Source of the DNA: Prevotella sp.
GTDB taxonomy: Bacteria; Bacteroidota; Bacteroidia; Bacteroidales; Bacteroidaceae
Direction of reading: 5' to 3'
Assembly (NCBI GenBank): GCA_017619755.1
Contig: JAFZRU010000051.1
Span: 1-48,140, forward strand
DNA: 48,140 nucleotides
Numbering within the stretch: the first letter of the stretch is position 1; each line of letters starts with the position of its first letter. The notes beneath the pieces are model-generated. The model had not been told where the DNA came from, did not search any database, and worked only from the letters and a program-made list of their open reading frames with translations. A program made the translations under genes and the position numbers. Positions 22,369-28,917 of this stretch are shown here, piece by piece.

Positions 22369-22950
22369 TTATTTGGTGAGCAGTTGTTGATAAACGTCGC
22401 GTGTGAGTACGTCGGTGCGTATCCACAAGGGCCATTTCACACGGTTGCCCATCGTTGGCTCGCCCACCTTCTTCTGCTTCTCAAAGACAAATTTGGCATT
22501 GATGAAGCCCTCCTCGCCATCCTTGGCGATGACGTAGCAAAAGAGTGTCTGTGCGTAGCCGATGACCTGCCCGTCTTTCTCCACGGTACTGGTTTCCCAT
22601 TCCGTCTGCGGGATGACGACGCTTTTCACCGTCACGGCGGGGTATTTCTCCACAAACTCCTTGCGGCAGAGAGCGAGCAGTTCCTCGCTGTCGGCACCCT
22701 TGTAGAGGTTAGTGTCGTAAAGGTTCATATAGTATTTCCCCTTCACCCTTCTCAGGCCGCTGTTTTCATTCTCAAAACTGTCCTGCACCTTGGTCACCAC
22801 GCCGTCAGCTGTCTCCTTGGCTTGTTTCCAGAAATTGGACACGCGCTCCTTCAGCGGTCCTTTGCCGGTGGGCTTGTCGGTCATCTGTGCATGGGCTGAG
22901 CCGGCAACAAACAAGGCCAGCACTGCCAAAATCATCGTTTTCCTTTTCAT
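22369..22950 (-). CDS. Secreted protein of unknown function
   Basis: 193 residues from the ATG at 22950; the frame is open further but this start gives a clean signal peptide (MKRKTMILAVLALFVAGSAHA, cut before Q). The mature part has KVQDSFENENSG, YYMNLYDTNLYKGADSEELLALCRKEF and a Trp-rich end (VKWPLWIRTDVLTRDVY). I do not recognise the family; it resembles unnamed Bacteroidales periplasmic proteins. It is first in a leftward unit with the TPR and cupin genes. A CAAAAGTA box (23088-23095, leftward TACTTTTG) could be its -7 element. Confidence 0.7.
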   Translation of the reverse strand: MKRKTMILAVLALFVAGSAHAQMTDKPTGKGPLKERVSNFWKQAKETADGVVTKVQDSFENENSGLRRVKGKYYMNLYDTNLYKGADSEELLALCRKEFVEKYPAVTVKSVVIPQTEWETSTVEKDGQVIGYAQTLFCYVIAKDGEEGFINAKFVFEKQKKVGEPTMGNRVKWPLWIRTDVLTRDVYQQLLTK

Positions 22951-23178
22951 TTGTTTTCTCCTTTCCTTAAAGTGATGAATGTCTTTCTGTCGGCTTTCCA
23001 CGCCCTGCGCATCCAGCCGCCTATTATATATAATAAGGTGTAAGCCCTGCCATCTCTTCCATGAGAGGCTTGCCGCCGCCTTTTGTGCAAAAGTACAACA
23101 ATTCCACAATACGGGGAAATTTTTCGCAATCGAAAAATCTTAAAAAACCAAAACCAAAGATAAAAGCGATGACAGGGG

Positions 23179-23250
23179 CTATAGCATCTATAGCTTCTAT
23201 AGCATCTATAAGCTCCTATAGCTCCTATAAGCTCCTATAGCTCCTATTAG
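23179..23250. repeat. Array of CTATAG/CTATAA hexamers at 9-10-bp steps
   Basis: CTATAG starts at 23179, 23188, 23197, 23216 and 23235, with CTATAA at 23206 and 23225 and a degenerate CTATTAG at 23244. Steps are 9 or 10 bp. Unlike the other three arrays it is not next to a stop codon; it lies in the divergent region between the secreted-protein gene and the aromatic operon promoter. Confidence 0.85.
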
Positions 23251-23304
23251 CCACAAAAATCAGAAAAAATGAGCAAAATGTTTTTTTATTTGAAGAAAAA
23301 GTTA

Positions 23305-23312
23305 TAATTTTG
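23305..23312 (+). promoter_or_regulatory. -7 promoter box of the aromatic amino acid operon
   Basis: TAATTTTG matches the TAnnTTTG element. A TTTG lies at 23289-23292, only 12 bases upstream, and no good box is at the usual 19-21 spacing (there the sequence is a T run). The start of transcription a few bases downstream would place the leader peptide about 20 bases into the RNA. Confidence 0.55.
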
Positions 23313-23339
23313 CACGCGAAATCACCAAAGAATGACAAA

Positions 23340-23414
23340 ATGAGAAATCTCGGCGCATACTTTTACCTTTATTTTTACTTTGCAAGCGATTGCGAAGCGG
23401 GAAGTTGCGCATAG
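23340..23414 (+). CDS. Tyr/Phe-rich attenuator leader peptide, 24 residues
   Basis: ATG at 23340, stop TAG at 23412-23414. Residues 6-15 read A-Y-F-Y-L-Y-F-Y-F-A: four Tyr and three Phe in eight codons, the control region. A 3-codon frame (ATG-ACA-AAA-TGA, 23332-23343) overlaps its start. The codons for C18-E-A-G (23391-23403) also form the left arm of the antiterminator. A ribosome stalled on the Tyr/Phe codons would leave this arm free; one that reaches the stop codon would cover it. Confidence 0.88.
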   Translation: MRNLGAYFYLYFYFASDCEAGSCA

Positions 23415-23492
23415 ATACAACTCAAGAGGATAAAGGCCGGAGGCCAGCACCATATTCCCGCTTCGCACATCGAGGCGGGAATTGTTTGTTTG
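23391..23492 (+). promoter_or_regulatory. Transcription attenuator: antiterminator and terminator
   Basis: Antiterminator: TGCGAAGCGGGAA (23391-23403) pairs perfectly over 13 bp with TTCCCGCTTCGCA (23455-23467). Terminator: ATTCCCGCTTCG (23454-23465) pairs over 12 bp (one G-U) with CGAGGCGGGAAT (23471-23482), loop CACAT, followed by TGTTTGTTTG. The two structures share 23455-23465 and exclude each other. A small GGCC-GGA-GGCC hairpin (23435-23445) lies between. The next gene is prephenate dehydratase, so control by Tyr and Phe supply fits. Confidence 0.88.
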
Positions 23493-23518
23493 AATTCCGG
23501 GGCTAAAAGAGAGGAAAA

Positions 23519-24361
23519 ATGAGAAGAGTAGCCATCCAAGGGCAAAACGGTTCGTTTCACGACATCGCCGCCCATCTGTATTTCGAGGGAGAGCAGGTGC
23601 AACTCATCTGCTGCTCCACCTTCGAGGAGGTCTATGAGCACATCCACCGCGACCCCACCATCATCGGACTGACGGCGATAGAGAACACCATCGCCGGCAG
23701 TCTCCTCCACAACTACGAGTTGCTGCGCGACTCAGGGGCCACGGTGGTGGGAGAGCACAAGTTGCACATACGCCACTGCATCTGCTGCCTGCCGGAGGAC
23801 GACTGGGACAGCATCGACGAGGTACACTCACACCCCGTGGCCCTGATGCAATGCCGGCAGTTCCTTGCAGGGCACCCGTCGCTGAAGGCGGTGGAGACGG
23901 AGGACACCGCCGGAGCCGCAGAGGCCATCATGGCACAGGGGCTGCGCGGGAAGGCCGCCATCTGCCATGCCGAGGCCGCACGACTGCACGGGATGAAGGT
24001 GTTGGAGGACTCCATCGAGGACAACAAGCACAATTTCACCCGTTTCCTCGTGGTTTGCGACCCCCGGAAGGCCGACTTCCTCCGCCCATTAGAGAAGTCG
24101 AACAAGTCGAGCATCGTCTTCGCACTGCCACACGAGGAAGGCTCCCTCTCGAAAGTGCTCACCATCCTTTCCTTCTACAGCATCAACCTCACCAAGATAC
24201 AGTCGCTGCCCATCATCGGACACGAGTGGGAATACCTCTTCTATGTAGATGTGACCTACAACAACCTCACCCGCTACCGGCAGAGCATCGACGCCATCAC
24301 CCCCCTCACCCGCGAACTGAAAATATTAGGAGAATATGAGAATGGAAGACAAACCAACTGA
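23519..24361 (+). CDS. pheA: Prephenate dehydratase
   Basis: 280 residues. Converts prephenate to phenylpyruvate for phenylalanine synthesis. The catalytic domain (1-180) shows IQGQNGSFHDIAA, the ENTIAGS block (55-61) and the hallmark T174-R-F in NKHNFTRFLVV. An ACT regulatory domain follows (about 198-275), with EEGSLSKVL in place of the usual GALxxxL-like turn; feedback by phenylalanine is expected. There is no fused chorismate mutase; that activity is on the third gene. It starts 27 bases after the attenuator T-rich tract. Its end overlaps the next gene by 26 bases. Confidence 0.95.
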   Translation: MRRVAIQGQNGSFHDIAAHLYFEGEQVQLICCSTFEEVYEHIHRDPTIIGLTAIENTIAGSLLHNYELLRDSGATVVGEHKLHIRHCICCLPEDDWDSIDEVHSHPVALMQCRQFLAGHPSLKAVETEDTAGAAEAIMAQGLRGKAAICHAEAARLHGMKVLEDSIEDNKHNFTRFLVVCDPRKADFLRPLEKSNKSSIVFALPHEEGSLSKVLTILSFYSINLTKIQSLPIIGHEWEYLFYVDVTYNNLTRYRQSIDAITPLTRELKILGEYENGRQTN

Positions 24362-25526
24362 CATCCGGCCGGCCGAGCGGTTGAGCTTGGTGCAAGAATA
24401 TTATTTCAGCCGAAAACTGAAGGAGGTGGCGCGCCTCAACGCCGAGGGCCGCGACATCATCAGCTTAGCCATTGGAAGCCCCGACATGCCACCGTCGGAG
24501 GCCACCATCGACACCCTCTGCCAAGTGGCACGGCAACCAGGAGCACACGGCTACCAACCCACCATGGGCACGCCGGAGCTGCGCCAGGCCATGGCACAGT
24601 TCTACCAACGGTGGTACGGCGTGACCCTCGATCCGGCAACGGAGGTGCTGCCACTCATTGGCAGCAAGGAGGGCATCCTCCATGTCACCCTGGCCTTCGT
24701 CAACCCCGGCGACGGCGTGCTGGTACCCAACCCCGGCTATCCCACCTACACGTCGCTGAGCAAACTCCTCGGGGCGCGCATCGTCAACTACGACTTGCGC
24801 GAGGACAACGGCTGGCAGCCCGACTTCGACGCCCTGGAGCACATGGACCTGAAGGGGGTGAAACTGATGTGGACCAACTACCCCAACATGCCCACCGGCG
24901 GCGATGCCAGGATGGAGACCTACGAACGGTTGGTGGACTTCGCCCGACGCCATGGCATCGTCGTAGTCAACGACAACCCCTACTCCTTCATCCTCAACCA
25001 CTCCCCCAAGTCGCTCCTGCAAGTGCCGGGCGCCAAGGAGTGTTGCATAGAGTTCAACTCCATGAGCAAGAGCCACAACATGCCCGGATGGCGCGTGGGC
25101 CTCTGCGCCTCCAACGCCACCTTCATCTCATGGGTGCTCAAGGTGAAAAGCAACATCGACAGCGGCACTTTCCGGGGCATCCAACTCGCCGCAGCCCAAG
25201 CATACGCCAACGACGACGCCTGGCACGAGGAGGCCAACGTGAAGACCTACGCCCGCCGACGCGCCATCGCAGAAGACATCATGCACACACTGCAATGCAC
25301 CTTCGACCCCCGGCAGGTGGGAATGTTCCTCTGGGGGAAAATCCCGGAGCACTACTCCGACGTGGAGCAACTCACCGAGCGCGTACTGCACGAGGCCAGG
25401 GTGTTCATCACACCCGGCTTCATCTTCGGCTCCAATGGTAGCCGCTACATACGCATCTCCCTCTGCGCAAAGGAGGAGAAGATGAAAGAAGCCTTGAGAA
25501 GAATAAAAGAATGCCTCATAAAATAA
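24336..25526 (+). CDS. PLP-dependent class I/II aminotransferase (aromatic or aspartate type)
   Basis: 396 residues, fold-type I. The PLP lysine is K245 in NSMSKSHNMPGWR, with D213 (VVNDNPYS) for the pyridine nitrogen and the substrate-binding NYPNMPTGG near 181-189. The C-terminal SRYIRISL provides the carboxylate-binding Arg. The sequence resembles the LL-diaminopimelate/aspartate aminotransferase branch. Its place between pheA and the DAHP synthase gene suggests it makes Phe and Tyr from phenylpyruvate and 4-hydroxyphenylpyruvate, or converts prephenate to arogenate; this is inferred from context. A second ATG at 24342 is equally possible. Confidence 0.88.
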   Translation: MRMEDKPTDIRPAERLSLVQEYYFSRKLKEVARLNAEGRDIISLAIGSPDMPPSEATIDTLCQVARQPGAHGYQPTMGTPELRQAMAQFYQRWYGVTLDPATEVLPLIGSKEGILHVTLAFVNPGDGVLVPNPGYPTYTSLSKLLGARIVNYDLREDNGWQPDFDALEHMDLKGVKLMWTNYPNMPTGGDARMETYERLVDFARRHGIVVVNDNPYSFILNHSPKSLLQVPGAKECCIEFNSMSKSHNMPGWRVGLCASNATFISWVLKVKSNIDSGTFRGIQLAAAQAYANDDAWHEEANVKTYARRRAIAEDIMHTLQCTFDPRQVGMFLWGKIPEHYSDVEQLTERVLHEARVFITPGFIFGSNGSRYIRISLCAKEEKMKEALRRIKECLIK

Positions 25527-25536
25527 ACACAACACA

Positions 25537-26601
25537 ATGGAACTCACCCTCACCCCCCTCAACCTCCCCAGCGATCATGAACGCCCCGTGGTGATAGCCG
25601 GCCCCTGCTCGGCAGAAACCGAGGAGCAAGTGATGACCACCGCCTATCAACTGGCCCGCAAGGGCTGCCACATGTTCCGAGCCGGCGCCTGGAAACCCCG
25701 TACGAAGCCAGGCGGCTTCGAAGGCCAAGGCGAGAAAGCACTCCCCTGGCTCAAGCGCGTGAAAGAGGAGACCCACATGCTCGTGGCAACGGAGGTGGCA
25801 ACCCCCCGCCACGTGGAGGCCGCCTTGGAACACGACATCGACATCCTGTGGATTGGCGCACGCACGTCGGCCAACCCCTTCGCCGTGCAAGACCTGGCCG
25901 ACGCCCTCAAGGGCGTGGACATCCCCGTCTTCGTGAAAAACCCTGTCAACCCCGACCTGGAACTGTGGATAGGAGCCTTGGAGCGCATCAACCAAGCCGG
26001 CGTCACCCGGATGGCAGCCATTCACCGGGGCTTCTCCAGTTACGACAAGAAAATCTACCGCAACCTGCCCATGTGGCAGATCCCCATCGAACTCAGGCGG
26101 CGCATCCCCTCGCTGCCCATCATCTGTGACCCCAGCCACATCGGAGGACGCCGCGAATTGGTGGCCCCGCTGTGCCAGCAGGCCATGGACCTGGGCTTCG
26201 ACGGCCTCATCGTGGAGTCGCACTGCGACCCCGACAAGGCATGGAGCGACGCCAAACAACAGGTGACACCCGACATCCTCGACTACATCCTCTCCCTCTT
26301 GGTCATACGCAACGAGAAAGTCACCACAGAGGGCATACACGAACTGCGCAAGCAAATCGACGAACTCGACAACCAGCTGATGGACCTCTTGGCCAAGCGC
26401 ATGCGCGTGTGCCGAGAGATTGGCCAATACAAGAAGGAGCACAACATGACCGTGCTGCAACCGGCACGTTACGGGGAAATTCTCGACAAGCGCGGAGCAC
26501 AAGGCTCACTCTGCGGCATGGGCTCCGACTTCGTGAAGAAAGTCTTCGAAAGCGTACACGAGGAAAGTGTCAGGCAGCAGATGGAGATATTGAGCAAATA
26601 A
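25537..26601 (+). CDS. Bifunctional DAHP synthase / chorismate mutase
   Basis: 354 residues. The N-terminal part (about 1-255) is a type I-beta DAHP synthase: AGPCSAE (20-26), GAWKPRTKPGGFEG, WIGART, KNPVNP and DPSHIGGRR are its conserved blocks. It condenses phosphoenolpyruvate with erythrose 4-phosphate, the first shikimate step. The C-terminal part (about 270-354) is an AroQ-type chorismate mutase (IHELRKQIDELDNQLMDLLAKR), making prephenate for both neighbours. Such fusions let chorismate-pathway end products inhibit the synthase through the mutase domain. It starts 10 bases after the aminotransferase stop. Confidence 0.95.
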   Translation: MELTLTPLNLPSDHERPVVIAGPCSAETEEQVMTTAYQLARKGCHMFRAGAWKPRTKPGGFEGQGEKALPWLKRVKEETHMLVATEVATPRHVEAALEHDIDILWIGARTSANPFAVQDLADALKGVDIPVFVKNPVNPDLELWIGALERINQAGVTRMAAIHRGFSSYDKKIYRNLPMWQIPIELRRRIPSLPIICDPSHIGGRRELVAPLCQQAMDLGFDGLIVESHCDPDKAWSDAKQQVTPDILDYILSLLVIRNEKVTTEGIHELRKQIDELDNQLMDLLAKRMRVCREIGQYKKEHNMTVLQPARYGEILDKRGAQGSLCGMGSDFVKKVFESVHEESVRQQMEILSK

Positions 26602-26638
26602 GCCAGAAGGGCAAGACCTATTATAAATAAGGAGCATC

Positions 26639-27436
26639 ATGAAGATTTTAGTTTTGGGAGCCGGCAAGATGGGAAGTTTTTTTCTCGACCTGCTCAGTTT
26701 CGAACACGAGACGGCGGTGTATGAAAAAGACCCGCGCCGCATGAGATTCACCTACAACACGCAACGCTTCACCTCCTTGGAGGAAATACGGGAATTCCGA
26801 CCCGAACTGGTGATCAACGCCGTCACGGTGAAATACACCATCCCGGCCTTCAACGAGGTGACGCCATACCTCCCCGACGACTGCATCATCAGCGACATCG
26901 CATCGGTGAAAACCGGACTGAAAGAGTACTACGAGCAATGCGGACGACGTTACGTCTCCACACATCCCATGTTCGGACCCACCTTCGCCAACCTGCAGCA
27001 ACTCTCCGAGGAGAACGCCATCATCATCAGCGAGGGCGACTACATGGGACGCATCTTCTTCAAAGACCTCTACCAACGCCTCGACCTCAATATCTATGAG
27101 TACACCTTCGACGAGCATGACCGCACCGTGGCATACTCCCTCAGCATCCCTTTCGTGAGCACCTTCGTCTTCGCCGCTGTCATGAAGCACCAAGACGCAC
27201 CAGGCACCACCTTCAAAAGACACATGCGCATCGCAAAAGGAGTGCTCACCGAGGATGACTACCTCCTCCAGGAAATACTTTTCAACCCCTACACCCACGA
27301 CCAGGTGGCACAAATACGCACCGAACTCAAGGAGCTGCTGCAAATCATCGACACCAAGGACGCCGAGGGGATGAAGGGATATTTGACGAAAATCCGAGCC
27401 AACGTGAAAAGGGACATCGACTTGGGGAAAAAATAG
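26639..27436 (+). CDS. tyrA: Prephenate dehydrogenase
   Basis: 265 residues. Oxidises prephenate to 4-hydroxyphenylpyruvate with NAD(P)+, leading to tyrosine. The Rossmann nucleotide motif is G7-A-G-K-M-G12 at the very N-terminus, and STHPMFGPTF (near 104-113) is the conserved substrate-binding block with the catalytic His. It has no ACT domain, so feedback may come through the attenuator or the synthase. It is the last gene of the attenuated operon, 37 bases after the DAHP synthase gene. Its end is followed by three copies of TTGGGG with A runs rather than a clear terminator. Confidence 0.93.
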   Translation: MKILVLGAGKMGSFFLDLLSFEHETAVYEKDPRRMRFTYNTQRFTSLEEIREFRPELVINAVTVKYTIPAFNEVTPYLPDDCIISDIASVKTGLKEYYEQCGRRYVSTHPMFGPTFANLQQLSEENAIIISEGDYMGRIFFKDLYQRLDLNIYEYTFDEHDRTVAYSLSIPFVSTFVFAAVMKHQDAPGTTFKRHMRIAKGVLTEDDYLLQEILFNPYTHDQVAQIRTELKELLQIIDTKDAEGMKGYLTKIRANVKRDIDLGKK

Positions 27437-27526
27437 GAATGCTCTCTCTTTTTGGGGAAAAAACTACTTTTTTCACAAAAAAAACACGTTGGGGGAAAAA
27501 AAATAAAAAAATATTGGAGAAAATGA

Positions 27527-27556
27527 TTGGTGAATGAAATATTTTTCTTATATTTG
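27527..27556 (+). promoter_or_regulatory. Bacteroides-type promoter of the secreted cohesin-like protein gene
   Basis: TTG (27527-27529), 19 bases, TATATTTG (27549-27556). The match to the consensus is good and leaves a 5' leader of about 95 bases before the ATG at 27658. Confidence 0.75.
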
Positions 27557-27657
27557 CACCGCCTTAAGTATGAAAAGTGCAACAAGGCGTAGCATACACT
27601 TAATCAAATAACACTAAAAACAGGTCACAAGACACTTATTTTCAAAACATATCAGAT

Positions 27658-28917
27658 ATGAAAAAGAAACTACTATTATTTGCAATGGGCCTCTTTGTCT
27701 TAGCAGGCAACACGATGGCCAAGAGTGATATCTACTACAAGGTAGAGAAGGTGGATATCATGCAGGGTAAAACAGCTGCCATCACACTCATGTATGATGC
27801 AGATGCTGACGCAATCTTCAAGGGCTTCCAGGTGGAGTTCACTCTTCCGGAAGGATTCAGTATGGCACCAGGCCACAAACTGGGTGCAGAACTTGCATCA
27901 CACAACCCCGAGTTGCAACTCCGCTTCAGCGACACTCAGGTCGGCGAAGGCGGACGCCCCCTTGTCGTCTTCATGGGCTTCCAGATTGACTTGACCGAAT
28001 TCCCCGTTGGCGAGGGTATCGAGCTCTTCACATTCTATGTTAAATGCGACGAGGGCGTGGACCTTGGCGAATATTCTTTCACCACCACTCACCTGGAGTT
28101 CGCTGACATGAAAACAGGACAGTCCTTCCACTGCACACCGAAAAAATGCACGCTCAACGTCATTGAGTACGCTCCAAGAGTCATCAGCGAGGAAGACACC
28201 GAAGTGGCTGAGGCCTCCACTGAACCTGAGGAAGTTACTGTCAAGCGCACCATCAAGGCCAACACATGGTCAACATTGACCCTCCCGTTCGACCTCACAG
28301 GCGATCAAGTTGCTGAAGCCTTCGGCGACGACGTGCAGATAGCAGAGTTCACTGATTTCGAGATGAATGAAAAGGATCAATTTGTTGTGAATTTCGCAAG
28401 CGATGATCCTGCTGACGGTCTCTTCGCTAACTATCCCTACATCATCAAGACCAGCAAAGCTATTGACCAGTTCTTAGTGAAAGATGTTGAGGTGGATGCC
28501 AACGAGGAAGAAGCTTACATCAATTACGACAATGGCAGACCCCAGACCCATCCAAAATATGAGTTCTATGCCGCCATGTATGGCACATTGCACAACGGTG
28601 TCAGCGTACCAAAGAACGGCTTGTTCCTCCGCAACAACAAGTTCTTTGTCTCCGATGGTGGCTCCGTGCTCCAGGGCTTGCGCGCATACTTTGTCATCAA
28701 AGATTACGAGTTCTTTGGTGAGGAAGCAGCCAACATCTCCTTCGCAATTGACGGCGAAACAACCGCCATCGAGGGTGTGTCTGTCAACGGCAGCGAAATT
28801 GTCAGCGGCGACGTTTACAGCGTGAACGGCACCTTCATGGGTCGCGCCGAGAACGTGATGAAGAGCCTGCCACGCGGCATCTACATTGTGAACAACAAGA
28901 AAGTGGTCGTGAAATAA
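27658..28917 (+). CDS. Secreted protein with cohesin-like N-terminal domain and sorting-type tail
   Basis: 419 residues with a signal peptide (MKKKLLLFAMGLFVLAGNTMA, cut before K22). Residues 22-170 look like a cohesin/adhesin-type beta-sandwich (DIYYKVEKVDIMQGKTAAITL, FKGFQVEFTLPEGF), followed by a Glu/Thr linker and a beta-rich part starting KRTIKANTWSTLTLPFDLTG, common in Prevotella surface proteins. The end (YSVNGTFMGR..LPRGIYIVNNKKVVVK) matches the C-terminal tail seen in many exported Bacteroidetes proteins. The ligand is unknown. A 60-residue peptide gene follows 32 bases later. Confidence 0.8.
   Translation: MKKKLLLFAMGLFVLAGNTMAKSDIYYKVEKVDIMQGKTAAITLMYDADADAIFKGFQVEFTLPEGFSMAPGHKLGAELASHNPELQLRFSDTQVGEGGRPLVVFMGFQIDLTEFPVGEGIELFTFYVKCDEGVDLGEYSFTTTHLEFADMKTGQSFHCTPKKCTLNVIEYAPRVISEEDTEVAEASTEPEEVTVKRTIKANTWSTLTLPFDLTGDQVAEAFGDDVQIAEFTDFEMNEKDQFVVNFASDDPADGLFANYPYIIKTSKAIDQFLVKDVEVDANEEEAYINYDNGRPQTHPKYEFYAAMYGTLHNGVSVPKNGLFLRNNKFFVSDGGSVLQGLRAYFVIKDYEFFGEEAANISFAIDGETTAIEGVSVNGSEIVSGDVYSVNGTFMGRAENVMKSLPRGIYIVNNKKVVVK

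Follow-up and report, generated by a model that had tools for sequence, protein, structure and literature searches.

Does a Prevotella operon whose genes serve phenylalanine, tyrosine and their common precursor answer to both end products through one short leader peptide placed before its first gene? The question is raised by a 48,140-nt stretch of DNA, here called the window (GenBank assembly GCA_017619755.1, contig JAFZRU010000051.1), which is contig 64 in a 67-contig, 3.7-Mb assembly that is 86% complete. The PheA protein encoded in it is 95% identical to PheA from an uncultured Prevotellaceae bacterium, and the best 80 PheA records are nearly all from Prevotella or Prevotellaceae, with rumen or omasum in many of their titles. 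Attenuators of enteric bacteria combine control codons for the product of the pathway with stems 1:2, 2:3 and 3:4 and a terminator before the first gene, and the window resembles the enteric trp, his and pheA cases in its product codons, its three stems and its terminator 5' of the first gene. Leader-peptide attenuators of these enteric operons are named in the available part of PMC1183508. Given the observed sequence elements, their conservation, the compensatory changes in their stems and the match between codons and operon, the window's element is very probably a ribosome-mediated transcription attenuator of the trp/his/pheA type, one that would read charged tRNA-Tyr and charged tRNA-Phe together. 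Its parts and the genes behind it are as follows.

23305..23312, + strand: -7 promoter box TAATTTTG (TAnnTTTG), from sequence
23340..23414, + strand: leader peptide ORF MRNLGAYFYLYFYFASDCEAGSCA, 24 codons plus TAG, from sequence
23358..23381, + strand: control codons 7-14, Tyr Phe Tyr Leu Tyr Phe Tyr Phe, from sequence
23378..23385, + strand: region 1 (CTTTGCAA), 5' arm of stem 1:2, sharing bases with the final control codons, from folding
23390..23397, + strand: 3' arm of stem 1:2 (TTGCGAAG), from folding and pairing in relatives
23391..23403, + strand: region 2, antiterminator 5' arm, fully paired with 23455-23467 (13 pairs)
23454..23465, + strand: region 3, left arm of the terminator, overlapping the antiterminator 3' arm at 23455-23467
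23471..23482, + strand: region 4, right arm of the terminator
23483..23492, + strand: T-rich tail TGTTTGTTTG, from sequence
23519..24361, + strand: pheA, prephenate dehydratase (PF00800, E 1.2e-52)
24336..25526, + strand: class I/II aminotransferase, named AspC here (PF00155, E 1.6e-59)
25537..26601, + strand: aroG-CM, DAHP synthase-chorismate mutase fusion (PF00793 and PF01817)
26639..27436, + strand: tyrA, prephenate dehydrogenase (PF02153, E 1e-11)

The preliminary description had claimed a 24-codon leader with four Tyr and three Phe within eight codons, a 13-bp pairing sharing the left arm of a 12-bp terminator with a T-rich tail, and downstream genes for the precursor, Phe and Tyr. All of these were confirmed, at the coordinates given there. 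The leader is present at 23340-23414, its codons 7-14 reading YFYLYFYF; the antiterminator 23391-23403/23455-23467 consists of 13 Watson-Crick pairs, and the terminator hairpin 23454-23482 has 12 pairs, one of them G-T, followed by a T tract that is interrupted (7 T per 10). The genes 3' of the attenuator, in the order pheA, aminotransferase, aroG-CM and tyrA, have the claimed functions by their Pfam domains, with the aminotransferase in addition; for this AspC the top NCBIfam models are LL-diaminopimelate aminotransferases, at scores under those models' cut-offs. The stem 23378-23385/23390-23397, absent from the first reading, shares bases with the last Tyr/Phe codons through one arm and with region 2 through the other, and it excludes the antiterminator; it is the 1:2 stem of classic attenuators, and its addition makes the full three-stem design. 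The window therefore holds a control-codon leader, a terminator recognised by sequence, an antiterminator sharing its left arm, stem 1:2, and codons matching the products of the operon. The geometry of classic ribosome-mediated attenuation that had been proposed appears well founded on this 1:2, 2:3, 3:4 anatomy and on its conservation.

A simple terminator scan of 22900-27700 returned 5 sites against a shuffle mean of 6.7, with no excess, so that the hairpin alone is no evidence. When a hairpin was instead scored together with an upstream segment matching its left arm (triad score), the locus reached 11, against a maximum of 8 among 1000 mononucleotide shuffles of the region, and along the + strand of the window, in 200-nt windows with a step of 50, a score of 11 was reached solely by two windows over the attenuator site. 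The sequence TAnnTTTG is the -7 consensus of this phylum, and by eye the -33 element accompanying it in the window is imperfect. For Flavobacterium psychrophilum the same -7 consensus is named in the available text of PMC9723704. Further 5' of the promoter, at 23179-23251, lies a tandem array of 9/19-bp units of the CTATAGCTC type. A search of the window's genome with one exact pattern (assembly 86% complete) found no second copy of the leader and region-2 motif.

In the proposed course of events, RNA polymerase would start slightly 5' of the leader and a ribosome would translate it. Were either charged tRNA short, the ribosome would stall in YFYLYFYF and keep region 1 from pairing; region 2, now free, would pair with region 3 as the antiterminator, and the polymerase would read into pheA and the three further genes. 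With both charged tRNAs plentiful, the ribosome would reach the stop codon and cover region 2, and regions 3 and 4 would pair as the terminator. The start site, translation of the leader, the stall, the termination event and any effect of Tyr and Phe on it are all predictions drawn from sequence. A leader ORF could also serve chiefly to boost translation of pheA, by coupling or re-initiation, with the hairpin incidental, and re-initiation has indeed been proposed in PMC4833913, where the part available reports a peak in Bacteroidetes leader-gene distances at 11-14 bp. In the window, however, the leader stop lies 104 nt from the pheA ATG with a strong hairpin in between, and coupling would leave both the stems and the match between codons and gene content unexplained, which makes it very unlikely as the main function.

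Attenuation predicts that relatives keep the same parts, and conservation was followed in a genus set of 107 loci, made up of 27 (the window's own included) and the best 80 of 557 relatives; five records are common to both subsets, giving 102 distinct loci. A Phe/Tyr-rich leader lies 5' of pheA in 106 of the 107 (101 of 102 distinct), the exception being L194, which has just 140 nt upstream before its contig ends and keeps the region-2 and terminator letters. A block of at least 7 Phe/Tyr per 9 codons no more than 300 nt upstream was found at 101 of the 105 loci with 300 nt of upstream sequence (two of the 107 have less), and in none of 1050 dinucleotide shuffles and none of 105 reverse complements. 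By the rule used, a hairpin with a T-rich tail is present in 102/106 loci; in L133, L157, L169 and L207 the hairpin is present with a weaker tail that fails the T-rich rule. L157 and L169 keep leader and hairpin without a T tract, and may terminate poorly or act otherwise. Among relatives the leader stop lies 8-54 nt 5' of the hairpin and the hairpin 10-205 nt 5' of pheA, and 96 of 97 distinct genus sequences have a TAnnTTTG no more than 75 nt 5' of the leader ATG, versus 2.7% of mononucleotide shuffles.

In these 97 distinct sequences the codon block ends in Tyr (95), Phe (90), Tyr (96) and Phe (96). Counting back from the block end, the fifth codon is Phe in 47, Tyr in 43 and another in 7; the sixth, with 51 Gly against 42 Tyr or Phe, is a poor fit to a Tyr/Phe block; the seventh is Tyr in 79 and Phe in 14; and the eighth is Phe in 62, Tyr in 27 and another in 8. 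Phe and Tyr replace each other at several sites of the block. Where the last four codons begin, both TAC (51) and TAT (44) are used, so that the amino acid and not the letters is kept there, while the letters of the last two, TAC and TTT, are nearly invariant, as expected because these codons form stem 1:2. Strong conservation of the leader peptide in the genus, with the tail CEAGSC in many loci, might be taken to favour nascent-peptide arrest, in which the peptide itself would stall the ribosome on a ligand, yet the tail is kept as RNA and not as peptide. Seven loci (L003, L021, L137, L155, L160, L165 and L201, L003 and L165 being the same record) have their stop, a TGA inside the stem letters, right behind the block, L026 reads the tail letters in another frame, and the tails differ in other families. 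In several loci the peptide beyond the control codons is thus missing or altered although the RNA letters stay, and arrest by the peptide seems extremely improbable beside stalling at the control codons.

The stems were tested in a MAFFT alignment of 95 distinct genus sequences, with kinship between sequences ignored. Stem 1:2 is paired in 100% of scorable cells, compared with 34-60% when slid and with a mean of 96.6% and a maximum of 97.8% in 300 shuffles; its outer pair is A-T in 57 sequences, G-C in 36, T-A in 1 and T-G in 1. For the antiterminator, of which 12 of the 13 pairs were tested, 88% of cells are paired, compared with 38-54% when slid and with a shuffle mean of 86.6% and maximum of 87.4%. 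The margin over shuffles is small because the arms are highly conserved, and the weight of the structure test, as far as an alignment can carry it, rests on compensatory changes: five antiterminator pairs show changes on both sides, in 19 cells, against a shuffle mean of 6.9 and maximum of 14. The terminator was chosen by folding, and its pairing is no independent test. The alignment check suggested in the preliminary description has with this been run, relatives keeping the Tyr/Phe codons (in the 106 of 107 genus loci above) and the stems, with compensatory changes. A further hairpin, AGTTG/CAACT, between regions 2 and 3 with the stop codon in its loop, seemed conserved by eye; it is paired in 38% of cells at the window's register, where shuffles average 42%, and a shift by one raises pairing to 61%, the motif is found in 34 of 97 sequences, and the hairpin is not claimed.

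Whether these stems could switch as attenuation demands was modelled in two ways, with ribosome footprints assumed in both. In an equilibrium model of the full-length leader with four assumed footprints, the leader without a ribosome forms the terminator with probability 0.95 and stem 1:2 with 0.98, and a ribosome at the stop codon leaves the terminator at 0.94. With Tyr11 in the A site the antiterminator reaches 0.93-0.98 over the four footprints, and with Phe12 it reaches 0.93-0.98 with three footprints and 0.27 with the largest. The switch is partial at the Leu10 codon (0.07-0.68) and footprint-dependent at Tyr13 (at most 0.65), and for stalls at Tyr7, Phe8, Tyr9 and Phe14 the antiterminator stays at or below 0.23 and the terminator remains. 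In the window the equilibrium model thus yields a robust antiterminator at just two of seven control codons, Tyr11 and Phe12. Over the genus, its probability is at most 0.3 at every position in 65 of 97 sequences and exceeds 0.3 somewhere in 32, which argues against a purely thermodynamic switch and calls for a kinetic one. In a model of the decision point, at which region 3 has been made and region 4 has not yet, the mean probability of the antiterminator is 0.87-0.89 whichever of the last nine block codons the ribosome occupies; it is 0.16 once the ribosome is at the stop, and still 0.71 without a ribosome. The direction of the modelled switching fits attenuation.

Conserved alternative structures 5' of amino acid genes are also found among T-boxes, riboswitches and protein-binding leaders, and an RNA of such a class might respond to Phe or Tyr with no need of translation. 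At gathering score the window has no Rfam match, at a relaxed threshold nothing over 23280-23530 does better than an E-value of 3, and a link between leader codons and gene content requires translation; a sensor of this kind is hardly credible here. The same link bears on what an attenuator would sense, and it was sought in relatives beyond the genus.

Among Bacteroidales, prephenate dehydratase was found in 80 of 198 genomes, and 72 of the 79 besides the window's were examined. At 62 of these 72 loci a leader with 6 or more Phe/Tyr per 9 codons is followed by a terminator, and in nearly all 62 a region pairs with the left arm of the terminator better than in shuffles (60 each), the pairing being weak for L066 and L086 (p 0.07) and for L050 at its second leader (p 0.33). 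The ten others comprise L038, with the leader MLTFLNLQLNFVNNFYYFYFFLS and a visible hairpin that is no terminator by the rule used; L037, with a Phe leader slightly under threshold and a terminator; L067, which is truncated; L040, whose protein is longer and whose setting differs; and six loci without a leader. Of 28 loci examined at class level, 17 have a leader, the second leaders of L125 and L129 being weak; the other 11 have no leader by the rule, and among them L112 and L122 have weaker aromatic leaders with a terminator. The order-level blocks total 1233 residues, 9 of them Trp, and general tryptophan sensing was rejected on this count.

With hisG and trpE taken whatever their place within the operon, a His-rich leader with a terminator lies 5' of hisG at 9 of 10 Bacteroidales loci from other families (L374-L380, L389 and L398; L396 has no His leader), and a Trp-rich leader with a terminator lies 5' of trpE at 7 of 8 (L402-L405, L410, L413 and L418). 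In the window's genus His leaders were found at 0 of 15 hisG and Trp leaders at 0 of 15 trpE. Leader-peptide attenuation looks broad across the order, and of the three sites examined (pheA, hisG and trpE) the window's genus shows just the Tyr/Phe attenuator.

Split operons provide a natural experiment on whether control codons track gene content. The DNA downstream of 70 order-level loci and of 60 further loci from a second search (178 of 393 genomes; 60 taken of the 62 listed) was searched with the window's AspC, AroG-CM and TyrA, and with G213, G198, G093, G175 and G156 dropped for short sequence, 127 loci remained. At 114 of these pheA is linked, that is, has aroG-CM and/or tyrA 3' of it on its own strand, and 113 of the 114 have a leader, every block containing at least one Tyr, with a median Tyr share of 0.44. 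The sole linked locus without a leader is L096 (G126), in a 1.2-Mb genome; G228 (L054), of the same genus, has one, and loss of control with genome reduction in G126 is possible. Of the 13 unlinked pheA loci, 8 have no leader by the rule and 5 have leaders with 0-1 Tyr in the block, namely FFTHFFFFF, FFFFFAFFF (twice), MYFDFVFGF and NTIRFFFYF, the last two under the leader threshold and included by hand; without them, 3 of 3 are Tyr-free. Tyr-free blocks thus number 3 of 5 at unlinked loci versus 0 of 113 at linked ones (Fisher p 4e-5, with kinship ignored; the five come from three families).

In all 13 genomes with an unlinked pheA, AroG-CM and prephenate dehydrogenase are encoded at another place, and each of these 13 separate aroG/tyrA operons is preceded by a Tyr-containing leader and a terminator of its own, a result that dual sensing predicts and that is hard to explain otherwise. 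In G053 the leader of the separate operon is MNNTFGYYAFYYYFFYNN and that of pheA is MTRFFTHFFFFFTQQ; in G063 the separate operon has MIKNISVFAYFYYYFYFSKK and the pheA leader block is Phe-only. Two additional AroG-CM copies (L353 and L354) have no Tyr-containing leader in the stretch scanned. The separate tyrA-aroG leaders of L349-L352 (family f72) contain Trp beside Tyr and Phe, for example FYFWFYYF, a mix that would suit the reading of all three aromatic amino acids. The codons of a leader track the genes of its operon, and this relation, by the comparison of these loci, is the best evidence here for dual sensing; the sensing of Tyr and Phe at once, as first proposed for the window, gains its support from it and appears probable on that ground.

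The window has a single leader. Two Phe/Tyr leaders in series occur at 24 of the 114 linked order-level loci (for example L035, L047, L057, L062, L073, L074, L095 and L100), and with the class-level L125 and L129 the number is 26, of which 25 have a terminator per leader by the rule; the second terminator is missing in L071 and weak in L125. Both leaders of a serial locus mix Tyr and Phe, and they are therefore not one sensor per amino acid. Doubled leaders are also carried by the separated tyrA operons of G134 and G463. We lean towards the view that an old modular Tyr/Phe attenuator exists in Bacteroidales, its codon mix retuned to the genes downstream (Phe-only or nearly so before a lone pheA, Tyr/Phe before aroG-tyrA), with serial pairs, at about a fifth of linked loci, past which transcription would proceed just after two independent stalls.

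How far this had been seen before differs between its parts. Bacteroidetes/Chlorobi were reportedly named among groups with attenuators in a 2004 FEMS paper by Vitreschak and colleagues. The window departs from the enteric attenuators in that its block mixes Tyr and Phe before an operon making both, in having no Rfam match and in belonging to another phylum. According to the available text of PMC2965389, its authors in 2010 knew of demonstrated leader-peptide systems only from Proteobacteria and Actinobacteria, apart from ermC, and they added bacilli. Table 7 of PMC1173090 (2005) has a database entry for a putative attenuator before pheA-hisHb-aroAIb-aroQ-tyrA of B. thetaiotaomicron, which belongs to the same order and, judged from the table entry alone, concerns the same operon; it is very likely the same element as the window's, and the entry describes no leader peptide, codons, conservation or sensing. 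Small ORFs of B. thetaiotaomicron reminiscent of leader peptides are mentioned in the accessible part of PMC7366714. For F. psychrophilum, the available text of PMC9723704 (2021) reports strong indications that amino acid operons are preceded by leader-peptide attenuators, and it describes a structured element, without Rfam hits, 5' of pheA; phylum and gene are the same as here, and that text gives no codons, stems or dual sensing.

The statement in the preliminary description that such sensing is little described must accordingly be narrowed, since the 2005 table and the 2021 paper anticipate it in part, as far as their available text goes. The link between codons and gene content, like serial leaders with the same signals, was not found in the literature searched (open-licence PMC papers). 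Tandem attenuators are known from Salmonella mgtCBR, where they respond, according to the part of PMC3641672 available, to different signals (ATP and proline). The serial Bacteroidales loci are like mgtCBR, as portrayed there, in having two leader ORFs before one operon, and unlike it in that both leaders mix Tyr and Phe, at 24 of 114 linked pheA loci.

The window would accordingly contain a genuine and strongly conserved classic attenuator, probably a mixed Tyr/Phe sensor, whose type of mechanism is old and partly anticipated in print, and the comparative case for what it senses seems unusually clean. The serial copies would allow the stacking of attenuators that share their signals to be tested and, if the view of two independent stalls is true, would provide a built-in sharpening of the response or a lower leak. 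The element could serve as a Tyr/Phe-responsive part for Bacteroides genetics. For the order as a whole, these loci, for which the Rfam library searched gave no match, point to textbook attenuation as a widespread control of phenylalanine and tyrosine synthesis in Bacteroidales.
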